This document shows, piece after piece, positions 819 to 35,974 of a stretch of 64,000 nucleotides of DNA. The stretch is from positions 124,001 to 188,000 of the forward strand of contig JAAEZT010000003.1 of assembly GCA_018222765.1 (NCBI GenBank), written 5' to 3'. Source of the stretch: a bacterium (GTDB taxonomy: Bacteria > Verrucomicrobiota > Verrucomicrobiia > Verrucomicrobiales > Akkermansiaceae). The notes beneath the pieces were generated by a model. It did not search any database and was not told where the DNA came from. It saw only the letters and a list, made by a program, of their open reading frames with translations. How positions within the stretch are numbered: position 1 is the first letter of the stretch; every line of letters starts with the position of its first letter. The translations under genes and the position numbers were made by a program.

Positions 819-3302
819 TTACTTCGATTGGAAGATACTGCTGTGAACAATCAAGTGTATCAAATCACCTAAACGATCGCCCTTTTTTCTGAATTGCACC
901 GTGAGGGCATCGATATCGGCATGATCGCTAAAACCCAAGGGCCGCCCCAGCGCGTAGGCCGTCATCTTGTGAACCATCGCGCGGGCAAACTGATCCTGAC
1001 GCTCCGCGAGCAGGTAGCGTTTTAACCCGTCCATCCCGGCCAATTCCTGTTTGTTGAACAAGACCGAGGTGGCATCGACAGGCTTGTTTTTGATCTTGGT
1101 CCGGTAGGACCCCAGGGCGTCGTAGTTTTCGAAAGCAATTCCCCAAGGGTCGATTTTGGCGTGACAGGAAATGCAGGCCGGCTTGTTGCGATGATCGACG
1201 ATGCGTTCCTTGAGCGTCATTTCCAAAATCCTCGGGTCGGTCAAATCAACCTCCGGGACATTGGGCGGTGCGGGCGGTGGCGGATCATGGAGAACGCGTT
1301 CCAGCATCCAAATGCCGCGCTTGAGCGGATGGGAATCCTTACCGTCGGAATTCATCGCGAGGATCGCGGCATTAGTGAGAATCCCGCCGCGATTGAGATC
1401 GGGCTTCACCGCGACCTTTCGGAAATGCGGACCATAGATATCGCGGATACGATAATGCCCCGCCAACTTTTCGTTCACCACGGCATAGTCCGAGTGCAAA
1501 AAATCCATCACGCTGTCGTTGCTCTTGAGAACGTGGTCAAAGAAGGCGACCGGCTCTTCCTGCATCGCTTCAAACAACACGCGATCCTTCACATGCACCA
1601 CACTTGCCATGGCATCCAGGCCGAGCCATTGCTCCACGAAATTTTGCGAGAAGCGCTTTGCCCGTGGGTCTGCCAACATGCGTCCGATTTGCCCCTTCAG
1701 AACCTCCGGCCTCTTGAGCGTTCCCTCCCAGGCAAGCGTCAGCAGTTCCTCGTCAGGAACACTGGACCAAAGAAAAAACGACAGCCGACTGGCCAACTCG
1801 ACTTCACTGACCGTCTTGGAGTCTTGCTGCGTCAGATAGAGAAATTCCGGTGTCGCCAGAACGGTCGCCAAGACCTCCAGCATCGCCTCCTCCATCGTAG
1901 CAAAGTCGGGACGGTATTTCGCAAACAAGTTCACGAAGGGCTCCACTTCCTTCACCTCAAGCGGGCGACGCCAGGCCAGCACCATGAATCGCGTCAGGAC
2001 TTCTCGGGCGTATTTTTCTTCATTTGTTTTGTGTTCGCTCTCGAAGAAAATCTCCCGATGGGTTTGCGGCGGCCATTGCTCGAAGTACGGCGCGCTGATT
2101 TCGACGAAGTCAATTAGGACGCCGAGCGGCTCCTTACCCCGCGTGCTCGCTTGATACTCGATGGTCAAAAACTCATCGCGTCGGGGAAAGTTTTTTTTGT
2201 TCTTCCGAAACGGGTTGCGCTGGATCTCGCTGAGCGGAATGTCCAGGTGAATGAACTGCGGGTCATCGACCGAAGCCGTCACCGGAATGTCGCGCGCGCT
2301 AATGACTTCGGAAAAATTGGCGTTGTTGCTGGTGTGCGCACTGAAGGTAAAACGCAGGCTGGCGAACTCATCTTGGTTCATTGAAGTGCGTCCGGCGCGG
2401 AGCGTGATCCGCATGGTTCCTTCGTCGGGAAGATGATTGCTGAGATTATACTTCACCGAACGTTTCCTTCGGTCCAACAAAGCCACTTTCGGGGAGGTCT
2501 GGCCCTTCTTCACATTCTCTTTGAGGAGATGAACGTTACCGACGTCTCCGCCATCGAGGGCTGACAATTTCTCGTCCTGCTCCGGCAGGCGATAAACCAC
2601 CATCTCGGGCCGCTCACCGAGAACGGTGATGTGCTTGAGAGCCTTCAGGGCAATCTCACGATAAATCTCAAATTGCATCGCGGACATTTGCAGTATCTCC
2701 GAGCTATTCTTGAATCCATCTTCGGAAGCCGTCTCCGGCGGGAGATTGCCGACCAGCGAATAGGGCAAGCCCAAGAGATCCTGCAGCGCGTAATCGTATT
2801 CGTAACGAGCCATGCGACGAAACGAGGAATGCCCTCCCTCATTACGGCGCGCGGTGGAGGCCTTGTCAATTTCCCCGCTCAGCCACTCGGTGACTTTTCC
2901 CAGATCCTCGTCCGCCAGATGAACATCAGCGTCTTCAGGCGGCATCTCACCATTGCTCAGGACATCAAGAACCTCCAACCACCAATCGACATCGCCGCCC
3001 TCCATGAGATTCGGATCAAGGGTATCAATGCGGAACTTGCCCTTGGCCTTCTTCGGCCCATGGCACTCCACACAAGTCTTCTTGAGGATGGGCGCGATGT
3101 GCTTTTTAAAGTCCCCAAGATTCGCGGTCGGCGCTCCCGCCGGGACCTCCTTTCGCGAAGCCAACAAAGCCGAATTCGCCCGCCCCGCTTCCCGGGCTTC
3201 AGCCAAGGAAGGTAACTCGGCACGACACATGGAAGCAGATGCCAAAAGACACCACGCCGTGATGCCAATTTTCTTTAGGGTGTCGGAGCTGGATTTGATC
3301 AT
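819..3302 (-). CDS. Cytochrome-type DUF1587/DUF1592/DUF1588/DUF1585 protein
   Basis: An 827-residue exported protein. After a signal peptide there is a c-type heme site CVECH (residues 77-81) in a PSCyt1-like domain, with MPPED as a possible axial Met region. RRMARYEYDYALQDLLGLP follows (DUF1587), then a beta-rich part, then LAWRRPLEVKEVEPF (DUF1595), LSFFLWSSVPDEELL (DUF1592), NRGGILTNAAILAMNSDG (DUF1588) and a second heme-type site CISCH (710-714). The C-terminus has the DUF1585 signature YALGRPLGFSDHADID. This domain order is standard for the family in PVC bacteria. The function is unknown, but two CxxCH sites suggest a periplasmic redox role. A purine-rich AGGGAG sits about 12 bases before the ATG. 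It is the first gene of a two-gene unit with the DUF1552 gene downstream. Confidence 0.92.
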   Translation of the reverse strand: MIKSSSDTLKKIGITAWCLLASASMCRAELPSLAEAREAGRANSALLASRKEVPAGAPTANLGDFKKHIAPILKKTCVECHGPKKAKGKFRIDTLDPNLMEGGDVDWWLEVLDVLSNGEMPPEDADVHLADEDLGKVTEWLSGEIDKASTARRNEGGHSSFRRMARYEYDYALQDLLGLPYSLVGNLPPETASEDGFKNSSEILQMSAMQFEIYREIALKALKHITVLGERPEMVVYRLPEQDEKLSALDGGDVGNVHLLKENVKKGQTSPKVALLDRRKRSVKYNLSNHLPDEGTMRITLRAGRTSMNQDEFASLRFTFSAHTSNNANFSEVISARDIPVTASVDDPQFIHLDIPLSEIQRNPFRKNKKNFPRRDEFLTIEYQASTRGKEPLGVLIDFVEISAPYFEQWPPQTHREIFFESEHKTNEEKYAREVLTRFMVLAWRRPLEVKEVEPFVNLFAKYRPDFATMEEAMLEVLATVLATPEFLYLTQQDSKTVSEVELASRLSFFLWSSVPDEELLTLAWEGTLKRPEVLKGQIGRMLADPRAKRFSQNFVEQWLGLDAMASVVHVKDRVLFEAMQEEPVAFFDHVLKSNDSVMDFLHSDYAVVNEKLAGHYRIRDIYGPHFRKVAVKPDLNRGGILTNAAILAMNSDGKDSHPLKRGIWMLERVLHDPPPPAPPNVPEVDLTDPRILEMTLKERIVDHRNKPACISCHAKIDPWGIAFENYDALGSYRTKIKNKPVDATSVLFNKQELAGMDGLKRYLLAERQDQFARAMVHKMTAYALGRPLGFSDHADIDALTVQFRKKGDRLGDLIHLIVHSSIFQSK

Positions 3303-3444
3303 CGTTGATGCCGCTCCCTGTTTACTGCCCGCACCTACTTACTTCTATCGGAGAATATTTGTGGAGACGGAGCGATTCCGATCCTCAATCGAACCTGCAC
3401 CTTGACCCCTCTGCTAAACGCAGTATCACTTCAGCACTTCACTT

Positions 3445-4932
3445 ATGATCACTATTCAGAAACATCTTCTCGTCGCAGGCGGCTTTGCGTTTACCGGTCT
3501 CCTTGGGCCAGTGGTGGCCCAAGAATCCGCTGCACCCCGCGCCGAGTATCCGGGCGGGTTTACGCGTCCGCCCTCAAAGGGAAAAGACTACGACACCTGG
3601 AACGGCGCCAAGGGACCCGATGTCGGTAAAACAAAAGTTGACCCCCAACGCCTGCCCTCGCGGGTCGACAATTCGAAAAGACCCGAATTCCCACCGGTCT
3701 ACAAACAGAGGTGGGGTGCGTGCGGTCAGTTTGCTTCGGTAGCTTCCATCTTCACCTACGAAATGAACGTCCTGAATGGCAAGAAAGCCGACAGCGACGA
3801 GAACAGATTTCCCGCTCACTTTTCCTGGAACATGATGAACCGCGCCGAGAATAAAGGCTCGGAAGCTTATCACGGATGGGAGGTTGCCAAACGGATCGGC
3901 ATTCCTACCGCGAAATCTTACGGCGGCGTGCGCCTCAACAAAATCGGAGTGTGGCCGAACGGCTACGATATTTGGCGTGAAGCGATGGAGTATCGGATCT
4001 CAGGCTACCGGTACACTCCCGCCAACACCGTGGCCCAACTTAACGAAGCCCGTGGTTGGATGTTTGATCGAAATCAACCCGGAAAGAAAACGCCCGGCGG
4101 TATCATGGCGCTCGACGGACGCATGGGCGAGTTGAAGAAAGTCACCGTGACCATTCCTGATGGGGAGCACGAAGCAGGCAAGGACATCTGGACCCGCTGG
4201 GGACCCTCCGGCTACGGACACGGAATCACCTGTGTGGGATACGACGATCAAGTCGGCTACGATGTCAACGGCGACGGCAAAATTACCAACGACATCGACA
4301 CCAATAACGATGGTAAGGTCACCCTCGCCGACTGGGAACGCGGTGCTTACATCGTAGTTAATTCCTGGGGCGAGAAATGGTCGAAGGACGGACGAATCTA
4401 TCTCCTCTACAGCGCCATGATTGACCCGAGCTGGAGGCGTGGAAACTACCTCGGCCGCGCGGAAGTGACCCGTTATCTTCCAAGCCAAACGCTCAGACTC
4501 AAACTCTTTTGCAACGACCGCACCGATCTCCGTATGACCATCGGCATTGCCGGAGACAAGAACGCCAAATCTGCCGAACACGAAATCACGCCCGAAGCCT
4601 TCAACGGCTGGCCGCTCTTCGGCCGAGGCGGAAATGGCGGCCACGTTCCCATCGCCGGACCGGAGGATGACACGCCCATCGAAGTCGGGATTGATCTCAG
4701 CCCCCTCCTCAAAAAACTCGGCCCCGATAAAGACGAAAAAGGAAAACTCTTCCTCCAACTCAGCCGGGCCGACGGCAGCAAAGTCAACGGCGAACTCCAC
4801 GAAGCCGCCGTCCGGCTCTATGACCCCAGAGGCAAGTTAGTCCGCGAATCAGCAATGAAGATCGAGACCGGAAAATTTGGCGAATCGCCACTTCAGGTCA
4901 ACACGGTGATCCACCATCTCGGCCAAAAGTAA
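3445..4932 (+). CDS. Papain-like C1 cysteine peptidase with EF-hand-like insert, exported
   Basis: A 495-residue protein with a signal peptide (about residues 1-26, ending VVAQ). The papain-type active site is visible: Gln88 and Cys93 in KQRWGACGQFAS, His259 in GYGHGITCVGYDD and Asn306 in VVNSWGEKW. Between His and Asn lies DVNGDGKITNDID followed by TNNDGKVTLADWE, two Asp/Asn-rich loops that look like an EF-hand or dockerin-type calcium pair. About 150 residues of beta-rich sequence follow the catalytic domain. It stands alone between a minus-strand unit and a convergent gene, so no operon partner helps define the substrate. The peptidase fold is secure. Calcium binding is inferred from the loop pattern. 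There is no clear propeptide, and no strong Shine-Dalgarno before the ATG. Confidence 0.88.
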   Translation: MITIQKHLLVAGGFAFTGLLGPVVAQESAAPRAEYPGGFTRPPSKGKDYDTWNGAKGPDVGKTKVDPQRLPSRVDNSKRPEFPPVYKQRWGACGQFASVASIFTYEMNVLNGKKADSDENRFPAHFSWNMMNRAENKGSEAYHGWEVAKRIGIPTAKSYGGVRLNKIGVWPNGYDIWREAMEYRISGYRYTPANTVAQLNEARGWMFDRNQPGKKTPGGIMALDGRMGELKKVTVTIPDGEHEAGKDIWTRWGPSGYGHGITCVGYDDQVGYDVNGDGKITNDIDTNNDGKVTLADWERGAYIVVNSWGEKWSKDGRIYLLYSAMIDPSWRRGNYLGRAEVTRYLPSQTLRLKLFCNDRTDLRMTIGIAGDKNAKSAEHEITPEAFNGWPLFGRGGNGGHVPIAGPEDDTPIEVGIDLSPLLKKLGPDKDEKGKLFLQLSRADGSKVNGELHEAAVRLYDPRGKLVRESAMKIETGKFGESPLQVNTVIHHLGQK

Positions 4933-29552: not shown

Positions 29553-30308
29553 CTATTTCCGCTGGCGTCTCGTCAGTGCGAGCGCACCCAAGCAAAGCAA
29601 GATCCCTGAGGAAGGCTCTGGAATTGAAGCAACCGTTCCGTTGAGCGCCAAGCCATCAATATTGTGGAGTGAGTTCAAGGCTCCACTGTTGACGTTGATG
29701 GTGAAGGTTTTGCTTTCACCCGCTCCGATCACCACAGGCGCATTCAAGGCCACGGTAATAAGAGGATTACCAGAATTCAGAGTACCCCCTGCGCCCTGTG
29801 CAGCTCCCGCCTCCTGAATCTGCCAAATACTGGCCCCTCCACTGGTAAAATCAATCGTTAGGCTGTCCACCGTAACACTGGTGACCGCATCTGCTCCAAT
29901 CGTAAACGCGATCGGGGCATTTCCATTTGAGGAAAGATCGGCTCCCGTACCTTGGGCCGATCCTTGTCCCCATGAAGTGTAATCAGAAACTGTCGGTCTG
30001 GGACTAGGGACTGCCGAGCCGTCGAAATAGTTGGCCCGGTGAAGGAAGATCACTTGGTCGCCTGAGTTTCCGCCGAAGCCAAAGCCATCGTGAACATCGT
30101 TGGGGACCGCACCCGGGCCGACATCGGTAAAGGAGCTGTTAAATGACAGTCCGGAGATCGTCGCTCCGGCGGGCACGCCACTGGAGGCGAGACGCGCGGT
30201 AGAGTTCGCTCCGGCGTTGAATGTCCATTCCGCAATAACTGCAGCGTTGAGTAACGCAGTGCTCGACACAGCGAAAATTATGAAGGAAAGAGGGTGTGCT
30301 TTGTTCAT
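29553..30308 (-). CDS. PEP-CTERM secreted protein, paralogue of the next gene
   Basis: 251 residues from the ATG at 30308, which places a signal peptide (LSFIIFAVSSTALLNAAV) at the N-terminus; Met codons further upstream are possible. One copy of a roughly 200-residue domain begins IAEWTFNAGANSTARLA and contains GPGAVPNDVHDGFGFGGN and NSGALNSLHNIDGLALNG. The C-terminus is a PEP-CTERM sorting signal: IPEPSSG, a hydrophobic stretch, then RRQRK. Such proteins are cleaved by an exosortase, which is not encoded in this window. The same domain occurs twice in the protein encoded at 30437-32017, where the PEP-CTERM tail is replaced by a different C-terminal module. Function unknown. Confidence 0.85.
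   Translation of the reverse strand: MNKAHPLSFIIFAVSSTALLNAAVIAEWTFNAGANSTARLASSGVPAGATISGLSFNSSFTDVGPGAVPNDVHDGFGFGGNSGDQVIFLHRANYFDGSAVPSPRPTVSDYTSWGQGSAQGTGADLSSNGNAPIAFTIGADAVTSVTVDSLTIDFTSGGASIWQIQEAGAAQGAGGTLNSGNPLITVALNAPVVIGAGESKTFTINVNSGALNSLHNIDGLALNGTVASIPEPSSGILLCLGALALTRRQRK
29674..29825. repeat. 152-bp near-identical repeat, copy 1
   Basis: Inside the PEP-CTERM gene. By eye it matches 30757-30908 at about 146 of 152 positions in direct orientation, far closer than the rest of the paralogous domains. It encodes the segment around VALNAPVVIGAGESKTFTIN. This suggests recent duplication or gene conversion between the two genes. Confidence 0.85.
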
Positions 30309-30392
30309 TTGATTGAGGGTTGTGGGGTTGGAATTAGACATGAAGTTCAAACCCATTCCCTTCGAATTCTCGTAAATTTGATGACTCTTGTC

Positions 30393-30416
30393 GACTCGGC
30401 CATTTGGCCGGGTGAC
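30393..30416. promoter_or_regulatory. Conserved palindrome upstream of the PEP-CTERM gene
   Basis: GACTCGGCCATTTGGCCGGG holds the inverted repeat CGGCCATTTGGCCG (30397-30410), and GTGAC follows. It lies about 85-110 bases upstream of the start at 30308. Read on the minus strand it is GTCACCCGGCCAAATGGCCG followed by AGTC, nearly the same as the element at 32086-32110. Probably an operator or part of a shared promoter. Confidence 0.5.
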
Positions 30417-30436
30417 TTTGTCTGAGATGATCGTCA

Positions 30437-32017
30437 TTACTCCTCGGTCTCGATACGGAAGAACATCTTAGGCGCATCCATCTGGACAGGAGGCAAGGGA
30501 AGTGTCAGGGTGATCTGGGTTGGGTCTTCGGGGTTTTCGTCCCGGGCGGCGGTAATGCCGTCATCCAGATCCCCCTCCCAGCCGGTCATGTCGAGCGAGT
30601 ATTTGGCGACATAAGAGGTGGCCAGAGTTTTCCGCCAAGTCAGGGTCACGGTATTAGCGTCAAGGGTATAATCAATCTCAGTGATCGCGAGTTCGATGGG
30701 GTTCGAAGGAGCTCTGAAGCCGTTGAGCGTTAAGCCGTCGATATTATGAAGTGAATTCAAGGCTCCGCTGTTGACGTTGATGGTGAAGGTTTTGCTTTCA
30801 CCCGCTCCGATCAACACGGGAGTATTCAAGGCCACGGTAATAAGAGGGTTACCAGAATTCAGAGTACCCCCTGCGCCCTGTGCAGCTCCCGCCTCCTGAA
30901 TCTGCCAGATGCAGGCGCCTCCGCTGGTGAAATCAACCGTCAAGCTGTCTACCGTAATGATGCTGAGTTCGTCCGCCTCAACCGTAAACGAGATGGCCGC
31001 ATTGCCATTTGAGGCAAGATCGGCTCCCGTCCCTTGGGCCGATCCTTGTCCCCATGAGGTGTAATCATCCAAGGTCGGGCGCGGATTTGGGACATCCGAA
31101 CCGTCGAAGTAGGTGGCCCGATGGAGAAAGATCACGCGATCACCTGAGTTCCCGCCGAAGCCGAAGCCATCGTGAACATCGTTGGGCACGGCCCCGGGAC
31201 CGAAATCAGTGAATGAAGCGTTGAACGACAATCCGGAAATGGTGGCGCCCTCGACGACACCACTGGGCGCAAGAAGCTCAACGGAGGTGGCACCCGAATT
31301 AAAAGTCCACTCGGCCAGAGGAGGACGCTCCTCCCGCTCCACGCTCCCATTAAGTAAAATGCCATCGATGTTGTGCAATGAATTCAGCGCGCCACTGTTG
31401 ATGTTGATGGTGAAAGTCTTGGTTTCACCCGGCCCAACAACCACCGGAGCATCCAAGGGAACATCGAGGACTGGGTTGGCACCATTTAAGGTGACTGTGG
31501 CACCGCTCGTGCTTCCGGCTTCCTGAAACCCGAAAATGATTCCGCCACCGCTGGTGAAATCTACGGTGATGCTTTCGATCGTAACGGTCGAGATGGCATC
31601 ACCCGTTACCGTGAACGCGATCGGAGCATTGCCGTTTGTGCCCACATCGGCACTAGTGCCTTGGGAGGATCCGAGCCCCCATGAGGTGTAATCATCCAAG
31701 GTTGGCCGGGGCGCGGGAACTTCAGAGGCATCGAAATATTCCGCCCGGTGAAGGAAGATTACCTGATCACCCCGATTCCCTCCAAAGCCAAAGCCATCGT
31801 GGACATCGTTGGGAACTGCTCCTGGACCGAAATCAGTAAAGGACTGGTTCAACAACAGCCCGGAAACCAAGGCTCCGGCGGCAACGCTGCCCGATGCGAG
31901 CCGGTCAACCGAAGTCGGGCCAGTATTAAAGGTCCACTCAGCAAGGACCTCGGCATTTATCGAGGAGATCGGCAAAATGGTCAAAAGACCCGCCATCAGA
32001 AATTTTTTCGGTTTCAT
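30437..32017 (-). CDS. Secreted protein with two tandem domains and the shared C-terminal module
   Basis: 526 residues from the ATG at 32017 (MKPKKFLMAGLLTILPISS is the signal peptide); a TTG 12 bases upstream is an alternative. Two copies of the domain found in the PEP-CTERM neighbour follow one another (about 22-225 and 230-432), each starting AEWTFN and containing GPGAVPNDVHDGFGFGGN and NSGALNSLHNIDG. The last 85 residues, from LAITEIDYTLDANTVTLTW to MFFRIETEE, form the module shared with the proteins at 4959 and 16508. The gene stops 128 bases before the start of the PEP-CTERM gene on the same strand. Function unknown. The repeat of an entire domain and the exchange of C-terminal tails suggest modular evolution of surface proteins. 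Confidence 0.85.
   Translation of the reverse strand: MKPKKFLMAGLLTILPISSINAEVLAEWTFNTGPTSVDRLASGSVAAGALVSGLLLNQSFTDFGPGAVPNDVHDGFGFGGNRGDQVIFLHRAEYFDASEVPAPRPTLDDYTSWGLGSSQGTSADVGTNGNAPIAFTVTGDAISTVTIESITVDFTSGGGIIFGFQEAGSTSGATVTLNGANPVLDVPLDAPVVVGPGETKTFTININSGALNSLHNIDGILLNGSVEREERPPLAEWTFNSGATSVELLAPSGVVEGATISGLSFNASFTDFGPGAVPNDVHDGFGFGGNSGDRVIFLHRATYFDGSDVPNPRPTLDDYTSWGQGSAQGTGADLASNGNAAISFTVEADELSIITVDSLTVDFTSGGACIWQIQEAGAAQGAGGTLNSGNPLITVALNTPVLIGAGESKTFTINVNSGALNSLHNIDGLTLNGFRAPSNPIELAITEIDYTLDANTVTLTWRKTLATSYVAKYSLDMTGWEGDLDDGITAARDENPEDPTQITLTLPLPPVQMDAPKMFFRIETEE
30757..30908. repeat. 152-bp near-identical repeat, copy 2
   Basis: The partner of 29674-29825, in the second domain copy of the gene at 30437-32017. 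By eye only about six positions differ. The first domain copy of the same gene (around 31365-31540) is clearly more diverged, so the close pair joins two different genes rather than the tandem copies. Confidence 0.85.
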
Positions 32018-32085
32018 CGTTTTAATCAAGAAGGTGTCCCTTGGGTTTCCAATGGATGGTCATCTTGAGTCGGGCGCGCCACCCT

Positions 32086-33504: not shown

Positions 33505-33670
33505 GAGAACCGAGATTTCGCCAATTCGAGAGCCGATGCAAGCCCACTCGCCACAGCTTCCTAGCAATATTCGTTTCCTATGACAGAATCTCCGTTGTGA
33601 GGAAAGTATGCTAAGATCCTCACACAAATTCCCTCGGGAAACCGCTCTACGAGGGAGAACGACATTTCGT

Positions 33671-35974
33671 ATGAAAAAACCAACCAATCTATTGTTCGCC
33701 CTCTTTGCGTCACTCTCATTGACCGGAGGTCTTCTTTGGGCTCAATCACCGGACCAAGCGGCCAAGCAGCCCAAAATCGAGGCCGCTCCCAATGTGAAAA
33801 ACTTCAAGGCGCTCCAGAAGCTCAACCAGCAAATTGTCGGCCTTTCCAAGAAGGCCCAGCCCGCCACCGTTTGTCTTGTGGCCAAGAACGGACGGGGCGC
33901 TGGAAGCGGGGTAATTGTCAGCCAAGATGGACTCATCCTTACGGCCGCTCATGTGACCTCCAGCATGCCAGGGGAAATCATCGTGATCTTCCCGGACGGA
34001 ACCCGCAAAGAAGCGGTGTCCCTCGGAGCCGACTATGATCGCGACGCCGCAATGGTGCAGATCAAGGAGCCCGGGAAATATCCCTTCGTAGAGGTTGGGC
34101 AAAGCAAGGACCTCAAACGCAACCAATGGACCGTCGCTCTCGGGCATTCGGGTGGATTTGACCCAATGCGCAAACCTCCGGTTCGTCTGGGCAGGGTTCT
34201 AAGGAACGAAAAATTCATTGTGACCGACACCGCAGTGGTCGGCGGAGATTCCGGCGGACCTCTCTTCGATGCTGAAGGCCGGGTAATTGGGATTCATTCC
34301 AACATCGGAGTGAGCTTGATGGAAAACCGTCACGTGCCAATCGGTGTTTACCACCAGCAATGGAAGAGCCTCAAGGAAGGGGAAAAATCCGGAGAACGAT
34401 TTAACAACGCTCCAAAAAATGTCCCTTCACCGGATCAGCCGGTTCTTGGAGTTCAACTTGCTGACAGCGACGACGGAGTCCGGGTCACCGGGGTCGTTCC
34501 AAAGTCTCCTGCCGAGAGGGCCGGTCTTGAGCCGGACGATGTCATTAAGAAAATTAATGGTGAGCTAATGAAGTCCACCGACGAGCTGATCGCTCTGGTC
34601 AAGAAGATGAAAGCCGGCGACGAAGTACAGCTGAACTATTACCGCGACGGAAATCCCTGGTCAGTGAAAGTAAAGCTCACCACTTACAAGGAACTCTCCG
34701 GCGAAAGAAAGGCTCCTGCAAAAAAGAAAGAGGAGGAGCCCAAAGAAGACCCGGCCCCCAAGAAAGAGAAGCCCAAAAAGGAAAAACCCAATGATCAGAA
34801 AGAGGCCGAAGATGCCATCGATGAGCTCATGAAGAAAGCGGCCAAAAATGGCGGTCGCCTTGAAGTGACTCCGGAACTCGTTGAGAAAATGGGCGGCATG
34901 GAAAAACTAATGGAAGAACTCGAAAAACGAGGAGGGATGACCCGACTTCCAAATCCCGGACCCGACAAATTTTTTGAGTCCTCCATGAAAGCCTTGGCGC
35001 CTGTTTCTAAAAAAAATGAAGGCAGCACCGCTCTGGTATTAATCGATGACAAGCTTGCCGCTCTTGGGACCGTCATTTCCACCAATGGCCGAATCCTCAC
35101 CAAAAATACCGAAACCCAAAAAGGGAAACTCTCGATCCGCCTAGGAGATAAAAAGTATGACGCCAAGGTTCTGAAACGATTCCCCGAACGCGATCTCGCA
35201 CTGTTGAAGATTGATGCCGAGGAACTTCACCCTGTTCGATTTCAGACGGCGGAACCTCCCCTCGGTTCTATTTTGACCGCGACCGGAGCCAAAGACGAAC
35301 CACTGGGCATTGGACTCCTAAGTGTGCCGGGAAGAGCGATGGCCAAAGTTGGCTTTATTGGAATTCAAGCAGGCGAGTCAGACAAGGGAGTCCTCATTCA
35401 AAGAGCGCTCCCCAACGGCGCCGCCTCCGAGGCCGGCCTCAAGGACAATGATGTGATCACTCATATCGACGGCAAAAAAGTCGACGACCCTGTCGAATTT
35501 GGTCATCTCATCCGTGGTCGAAAAGCGGGCGAGGAAGTTAAGGTGCAATACCTTCGTGAGGGTAAAGCCGGAAAAGCCACCGCCACTCTCAAGGAGCGGG
35601 CGATGCGGGATAACGCCAGAGACGATCCCCGCATGAAAATGTCCCACGGCGAGCTTTCAGAAAAGACCAGTGGATATCCCGACGCCATTCAGCATGACAT
35701 TCCGCTCCCACCTCAACTGTGCGGCGGACCGCTTTTCGATCTTAAAGGAAGATGCATCGGCATCAACGTTTCCCGCGCCGGGCGGACCAAGACTTACGCC
35801 ATTCCGGCGGATGAAATTCAAGCAATGCTCAAGTCTGCCAAAGGTCCAAAGAAGCCTGCTAAACCAGAGAAGCCCGTCGCAAAAAATGACAACCTCGAAG
35901 CGATCAAGGCCATCCGCGAAAGCCTCAAGGAAATCGAAAAACGCCTCGAGGAACTCGAGAAAGCCGGGCGATAA
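33671..35974 (+). CDS. Double HtrA-like protease with PDZ domains; second protease domain degenerate
   Basis: 767 residues from the ATG at 33671, preceded by GAGGGAGAA. After a signal peptide, the first trypsin-like domain has an intact triad: His94 (LTAAHV), Asp125 (DRDAAMVQI) and Ser194 (GGDSGGPLF). PDZ1 follows at 257-340, then a Lys/Glu/Pro-rich linker (345-380). A second trypsin-like domain starts at about 450, but the His position is Thr480 (ILTKNTE), Asp508 is kept (ERDLALLKI) and the Ser position is Cys684 (PQLCGGPLF). A second PDZ domain (about 562-640) sits between the Asp strand and the Cys684 loop, so it splits this protease domain. A short coiled coil ends the protein. The first half should be an active periplasmic protease. 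The second is probably a binding or regulatory unit. Confidence 0.9.
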   Translation: MKKPTNLLFALFASLSLTGGLLWAQSPDQAAKQPKIEAAPNVKNFKALQKLNQQIVGLSKKAQPATVCLVAKNGRGAGSGVIVSQDGLILTAAHVTSSMPGEIIVIFPDGTRKEAVSLGADYDRDAAMVQIKEPGKYPFVEVGQSKDLKRNQWTVALGHSGGFDPMRKPPVRLGRVLRNEKFIVTDTAVVGGDSGGPLFDAEGRVIGIHSNIGVSLMENRHVPIGVYHQQWKSLKEGEKSGERFNNAPKNVPSPDQPVLGVQLADSDDGVRVTGVVPKSPAERAGLEPDDVIKKINGELMKSTDELIALVKKMKAGDEVQLNYYRDGNPWSVKVKLTTYKELSGERKAPAKKKEEEPKEDPAPKKEKPKKEKPNDQKEAEDAIDELMKKAAKNGGRLEVTPELVEKMGGMEKLMEELEKRGGMTRLPNPGPDKFFESSMKALAPVSKKNEGSTALVLIDDKLAALGTVISTNGRILTKNTETQKGKLSIRLGDKKYDAKVLKRFPERDLALLKIDAEELHPVRFQTAEPPLGSILTATGAKDEPLGIGLLSVPGRAMAKVGFIGIQAGESDKGVLIQRALPNGAASEAGLKDNDVITHIDGKKVDDPVEFGHLIRGRKAGEEVKVQYLREGKAGKATATLKERAMRDNARDDPRMKMSHGELSEKTSGYPDAIQHDIPLPPQLCGGPLFDLKGRCIGINVSRAGRTKTYAIPADEIQAMLKSAKGPKKPAKPEKPVAKNDNLEAIKAIRESLKEIEKRLEELEKAGR

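Follow-up and report, generated by a model that had tools for sequence, protein, structure and literature searches.

The DNA analysed here (the window, meaning the whole stretch of 64,000 nucleotides) comes from an Akkermansiaceae bacterium (Verrucomicrobiota; assembly GCA_018222765.1, contig JAAEZT010000003.1, positions 124,001-188,000). An open reading frame at 33671-35974 on its forward strand encodes a protein in which an active HtrA protease domain (D1) is joined to a second HtrA-like domain (D2) that lacks the catalytic His and Ser and carries a PDZ domain inside its protease fold. D1 and D2 are found together with very few exceptions among relatives, in one polypeptide or as neighbouring genes, and we propose below that they are the two parts of a regulated protease.

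Layout of the 767-residue protein

Translation of the reading frame gives a 767 amino acid product without an internal stop. There is an alternative in-frame ATG upstream at 33608, and 33671 begins a typical signal peptide; because the N-terminus resembles one, the protein would be expected to act in the periplasm. The parts of the gene are as follows:

33671-35974 (+): whole fusion protein, 767 amino acids: active HtrA protease, PDZ1, charged linker, pseudoprotease with a nested PDZ, C-terminal helix
33671-33742 (+): predicted signal peptide, residues 1-24, as read from the sequence
33779-34405 (+): residues 37-245, D1, an active HtrA domain with trypsin fold (Pfam, triad)
33950-33952, 34043-34045 and 34250-34252 (+): codons of the D1 triad, His94, Asp125 and Ser194
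34439-34678 (+): PDZ1, residues 257-336, following D1 as is usual in HtrA proteases (Pfam; missing from some relatives)
34703-34990 (+): charged linker, residues 345-440, with short helices and mostly low confidence in the full-length model
34991-35344 (+): first part of D2, residues 441-558, comprising barrel one and the initial long strand of barrel two
35102-35104, 35108-35110, 35192-35194 and 35333-35335 (+): in this first part, with its TKNTE motif, Lys478, Thr480 (His position), Asp508 and the L3 arginine Arg555
35354-35590 (+): PDZ2, residues ~562-640, inserted where HtrA proteases have loop L3, with the carboxylate-binding-loop motif FIGI
35648-35836 (+): second part of D2, residues 660-722, predicted to complete the second barrel
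35690-35698 and 35720-35722 (+): in this second part, Gln674-His675-Asp676 and, in the motif LCGGP, Cys684 (Ser position); also Asn699, Arg702 and Arg705
35891-35962 (+): C-terminal amphipathic helix, residues 741-764, predicted in the full-length model, possibly a coiled coil

With the full sequence as query, Pfam matches Trypsin_2 at residues 78-208 (E value 2.9e-37) and PDZ_2 in two places, with the best match at 257-336. D1 has a trypsin fold by structure comparison (fold matches with Z ~23-25), and it carries a His-Asp-Ser triad and a GxSGG motif. The main samples of relatives were 289 Verrucomicrobiota genomes examined by profile searches and a separate collection of 80 loci from Verrucomicrobiota and Planctomycetota. 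The preliminary description of this DNA had called the triad of domain 1 intact; the three residues are there in the translation, and H, D and S occupy these positions in all 78 related loci that have D1. Against the named types (Do family, DegP, DegQ, DegS and HtrA) D1 scores far under every cut-off (for example, 248 bits vs a Do family cut-off of 416). The full-length model has a predicted local distance difference test (pLDDT) value of 78.7 and a predicted template modelling score of 0.65.

A PDZ domain within the second protease domain

Searched by itself, D2 gives a PDZ_2 match (8.8e-16) and a match to the N-terminal part only of Trypsin_2 (profile positions 11-88 of 144, 8.3e-10). The rest of the protease domain is recovered by aligning a D2 profile with the DegP-like chain 22kg, in which the barrel blocks at profile positions 34-136 and 248-304 correspond to residues 94-200 and 204-265, and the intervening positions 147-232 correspond to the separate C-terminal PDZ of 22kg. 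Since the two barrel blocks abut in 22kg and the PDZ matches elsewhere, PDZ2 is nested inside the protease part, in the place of loop L3, which in HtrA proteases carries the signal from the PDZ to the active site. An AlphaFold model of D2 (pLDDT 89.1, from 81 sequences) has strands both before and after the PDZ, and structural alignment by VIA-align with the PDZ looped out matches it to HtrA protease domains with Z values of 22.6-24. Residues ~8-300 of the model align with DegS-deltaPDZ over 172 of 185 residues at 2.8 Å, and the corresponding figures are 173 of 184 at 2.6 Å for the DegQ protease domain and 178 of 197 at 3.2 Å for HtrA1; the aligned part amounts to just ~170-190 of the 310 model residues, as the looped-out PDZ takes no part. 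As modelled, then, no part of the HtrA protease fold is missing from D2, and the residues that follow the PDZ complete its barrel. This bears out the earlier proposal that the PDZ is inserted inside a degenerate second domain, unlike in DegP or DegS, and that residues 655-722 pack into the barrel begun at 450-560. The proposal can be refined in one respect: the insertion is within the second β-barrel, after its first long strand, and not between the barrels.

Foldseek had also been tried on D2 and returned low template modelling scores, mostly with root-mean-square deviations of 5-23 Å, probably because sequential alignment to chains with a protease domain followed by a PDZ forces the wrong topology; it was replaced by VIA-align on protease domains. 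Matches in the BFVD viral library were generic trypsin-fold ones only. Comparison of D1 with D2 minus its PDZ by hhalign supports their homology (99.3%, E value 1.7e-20), with the gap placed implausibly around L3.

PDZ2 is nested in all 80 related loci, and in none of them does a PDZ follow D2. One genome (G311), which also retains other full D1-D2 pairs, has two D1-D2 fusions without any PDZ (L196, 615-3419, + strand; L197, 1524-3167, - strand), and in both the two barrel parts of D2 are kept and directly adjacent. The constant nesting and these natural PDZ-less versions rule out chance as an explanation of the nested arrangement. The 935 amino acid PDZ-less fusion of this genome has an extra C-terminal domain that, as read from its sequence, resembles a sialate O-acetylesterase.

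Catalytic positions and loop L3 of D2

The residues at the triad positions of D2 are, as first described, Thr480, Asp508 and Cys684. Among the 80 loci the His position is never His (S in 64, T in 8, V in 5, E in 2 and A in 1), the Asp position is Asp in 79, and the nucleophile position is never Ser (C in 54, V in 13, M in 7, I in 3 and T, Q and E in one each). A set of 43 D2 sequences from the genome search, made with no motif selection, agrees on the catalytic loss, one of its sequences having Ser in the place of the nucleophile. Could D2 instead be an active cysteine protease that uses Cys684 and another base? Cys is present at that position in two thirds of the loci and in all close orthologues, and the conserved His675 is nearby; but the catalytic His is replaced in every locus and the nucleophile in 26 of 80, and alignment puts His675 in the place of DegP Thr201 (IQTDA), on the strand before loop L1 and not at the catalytic His site. 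We consider such an activity very improbable. Because the residue is otherwise mostly V, M or I, Cys684 is unlikely to be a nucleophile, and the special role first suggested for it is not borne out by homologues, about a third of which have another residue there.

Other residues of the dead site are well kept. Lys478, Asp508, GGP, Arg702 and Arg705 are conserved in the 80 loci (for which QHD and G..G.N..R were scan patterns), and in the 43-sequence set Lys478 is retained in 41, Glu481 in 40, Gln-His-Asp in 40, 39 and 39, Asn699 in 38, Arg702 in 39 and Arg705 in 42. The pocket thus seems to be maintained for something other than catalysis.

By alignment, PDZ2 lies between the strand that ends in Arg555 and the strand that carries Gln674-His675-Asp676 (IQTD in DegP). 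Arg555 aligns with DegP R187, DegS R178 and HtrA1 R302, and Gln674 aligns with DegP Q200; R187 and Q200 are relay residues in DegP (PMC5666011). Arg555 is kept in 77/80 and 42/43 sequences of the two D2 sets and Gln674 in 79/80 and 40/43, and in 80 of 81 sequences Arg555 lies 6-8 residues away from the φ-G-φ carboxylate-binding motif of PDZ2 (φ is hydrophobic; FIGI here). The idea that D1 has lost its L3 arginine and that D2 supplies it was abandoned, as Arg175 of D1 pairs with the HtrA L3 arginine in the profile alignment.

These features bear on whether D2 is a scaffold only, that is, an oligomerisation module whose PDZ merely recruits clients, with no allosteric relay through L3. Plant Deg7 (layout PD-PDZ-PDZ-PDia-PDZ-PDZ) resembles the present protein in having an active and an inactive protease domain in one chain, and its inactive domain is involved in trimerisation (PMC3473262). 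It differs, in a comparison made by description, in being eukaryotic and in having its annotated PDZs not nested but in pairs after each protease domain. The whole barrel of D2 is kept and PDZ-less fusions occur, as a scaffold would allow, but a scaffold would not need Arg555 to lie at a short and nearly constant distance from the PDZ ligand loop, nor Arg555 and Gln674 to be retained. A pure scaffold is accordingly an account to which we give a minor though appreciable chance.

Pairing of D1 with D2 and its possible meaning

Among the 289 genomes the D2 profile matches 31, and the D1 profile (D1-type genes score at least 173 bits, vs at most 130 bits for ordinary HtrA) matches the identical 31; no D1-clade gene was found in any of these 289 genomes that is without D2. 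Of the 61 D1 genes, 58 have a D2 found by the profile either beside them or in the same reading frame; of the remaining three, two are fused to a PDZ-less D2 and one has a D2 on another contig of its genome. In the 80-locus collection D1 stands directly before D2 in 78 cases (40 fused, 38 adjacent), and the other two loci are at contig edges, where D1 would fall beyond the contig end. The collection spans Akkermansiaceae, Roseibacillus, Haloferula, Luteolibacter and Prosthecobacter in the Verrucomicrobiota and Pirellulaceae, Thermoguttaceae and Fuerstiella in the Planctomycetota. The D2 tree (a quick tree with long branches) implies at least 10 switches between the fused and the split state, and one relative (L041, genome G266) has the reversed order, a 637 amino acid fusion of D2 followed by D1 and a PDZ. 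Matches to the 767 amino acid protein are present in 38 of 38 genomes of the relatives search, and its own genome also has adjacent-gene pairs on contigs C33 and C21 and another fusion, of 712 amino acids, on C14. What the preliminary description could not see is that D2 recurs as a partner of D1 and can also be encoded by a gene of its own beside that of D1. Directly upstream of the D1-D2 fusion on C14 (L008, 1474-3132, - strand) is a gene for a 553 amino acid homologue whose two protease domains both seem to have lost catalysis, a second-order pseudoprotease; it adjoins a gene for a tetratricopeptide repeat/membrane protein.

In 12 of the 78 loci that have D1, no PDZ1 could be detected; all 12 are Planctomycetota fusions that retain PDZ2, and in 11 of them D1 and D2 are joined by about 10-20 residues, mostly ~10. 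The ~250 amino acid D1 proteins of genus g13 are likewise without PDZ1. Where one PDZ goes in these relatives, it is PDZ1.

Is D2 a functionless relic of a duplication that is degenerating? Its catalytic residues are gone, and in one incomplete metagenome-assembled genome the orthologue of the window gene (L193, G023 C2:50100-52900) has a frameshift and a scrambled stretch early in D2, which could be an assembly error or decay. However, dN/dS values (nonsynonymous over synonymous substitution rates) indicate purifying selection on D2 between close relatives (the loci L014-L017 and L053-L056, from two collections, overlap in part in the genomes they come from), and the highest dN/dS in the closest pairs is in the linker. 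At moderate distance, where dS is finite, the post-PDZ segment of D2 has a lower dN than D1 (0.068 vs 0.102 and 0.062 vs 0.133 in two comparisons, which involve L056 and L057). With this constraint, the presence of D2 across two phyla and the absence of D1-clade genes from genomes without D2, a relic is hardly credible.

The flanking open reading frames of 13 diverse loci include no gene common to all, and only small subsets share one, so gene context names no substrate. Two related species have a related, apparently exported gene just upstream of split D1/D2 genes (L112, from Luteolibacter pohnpeiensis, 2761-3828; L093, 2497-3843), possibly a functional partner for that orthologue group only, and L084 and L091 have an epimerase-like neighbour in common. 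In the window itself, 29553-32029 (- strand) holds two adjacent genes with a repeated ~200 amino acid unit, present twice in a 530 amino acid protein and once in a 294 amino acid protein that ends in a PEP-CTERM-like tail; the pair looks like a tandem duplication.

How does the D1-D2 pair compare with known systems? Within the HtrA/Deg family (MEROPS S1C; DegP, DegQ, DegS, HtrA1), the triad, the fold and PDZ1 all mark D1 as an ordinary member, and D2 shares the complete protease fold and the L3 Arg and Gln positions but is without the His and Ser and has its PDZ inside L3, not after the protease domain. Nested PDZ domains are known in protease family S41. There, CtpA, CtpB and Prc similarly have a regulatory PDZ inserted in the protease (PMC6686036), but the protease fold is unrelated and the PDZ controls the active site of the protease that contains it, not that of a partner. 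Arabidopsis Deg5 and Deg8 are, like D1 and D2, two different HtrA subunits, in a hetero-hexamer in which one is without a PDZ (PMC3640471, PMC12485368), but both retain the catalytic triad residues and ordinary PDZ placement. In magnetotactic bacteria, an active HtrA, MamE, is again accompanied by a pseudoprotease, MamO, which is encoded in the same island and promotes MamE-dependent proteolysis (PMC4794232). MamO, however, keeps its His and Asp with a Thr nucleophile, binds metal and has a C-terminal transporter domain, which a Pfam scan does not find in the 767 amino acid protein, and no nested PDZ is described for it. In the literature, covered in part, we found nothing on the D1-D2 pair or on a PDZ within L3 of a trypsin-fold domain.

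Beside these computed features (sequence anatomy, complete D2 barrel, nested PDZ, catalytic loss, near-obligate pairing and constraint) we place the following proposal, to which we give a probability of roughly 0.55: D1-D2 is an exported two-part HtrA protease, and D2 is its dedicated non-catalytic pseudoprotease partner with a sensor or recruitment PDZ. D1 would be the catalytic subunit, and D2 a non-catalytic subunit of HtrA fold that packs with it, within the chain when fused and between chains when split, probably side by side in an HtrA-type oligomer. In favour of such direct contact are the shortness of the linker in certain fusions and the occurrence of the pair as two genes. PDZ2 would bind C-termini or exposed segments of clients, and L3 would pass this signal on to D1. 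Of the original suggestion, a PDZ-gated sensor or inhibitor of domain 1, the sensor or regulatory side is consistent with the obligate pairing with an active protease, the total catalytic loss and the wiring of the PDZ to the L3 relay arginine. That control is by activation rather than inhibition is weakly favoured by analogy with MamO. The inhibitory version, in which D2 docked on D1 holds it off until PDZ2 binds a client, would be autoinhibition like that of DegS in trans; the DegS PDZ is an inhibitory lock that acts via L3 (PMC5666011), and one dead subunit per active subunit is compatible with this. Such docking on the active site is hypothetical, however, and most pairs keep D1's own PDZ, so we judge a lock improbable.

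Several points weigh against the proposed sensor and partner role of D2. At the position of DegP T176, the third relay residue, D2 has Pro544, and since D1 itself seems to keep an L3 arginine, D1 may not need that of D2. The two PDZ-less fusions indicate that D2 can have a PDZ-independent role. Finally, the conservation of QHD and G..G.N..R in the 80 loci is partly selected, because these patterns were used in the scan, and the 43-sequence set is the fairer measure. More tentatively, at somewhat less than even odds, D1-D2 may represent a widespread two-component HtrA class of Verrucomicrobiota and Planctomycetota, with an obligatory dead subunit whose L3-wired PDZ is an allosteric sensor for the active partner in cis or in trans.

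Most work on how PDZ occupancy is relayed to the HtrA active site has used homotrimers, in which each subunit is both sensor and enzyme. D1-D2 seems to separate these two jobs, in many species onto two genes, so that one could mutate and combine the sensor and the catalyst separately. The annotation of proteins in two large phyla is also affected, as Pfam presents D2 as a truncated trypsin domain and a PDZ. The active and dead pair, fused or in neighbouring genes, looks like an overlooked two-part regulated protease.
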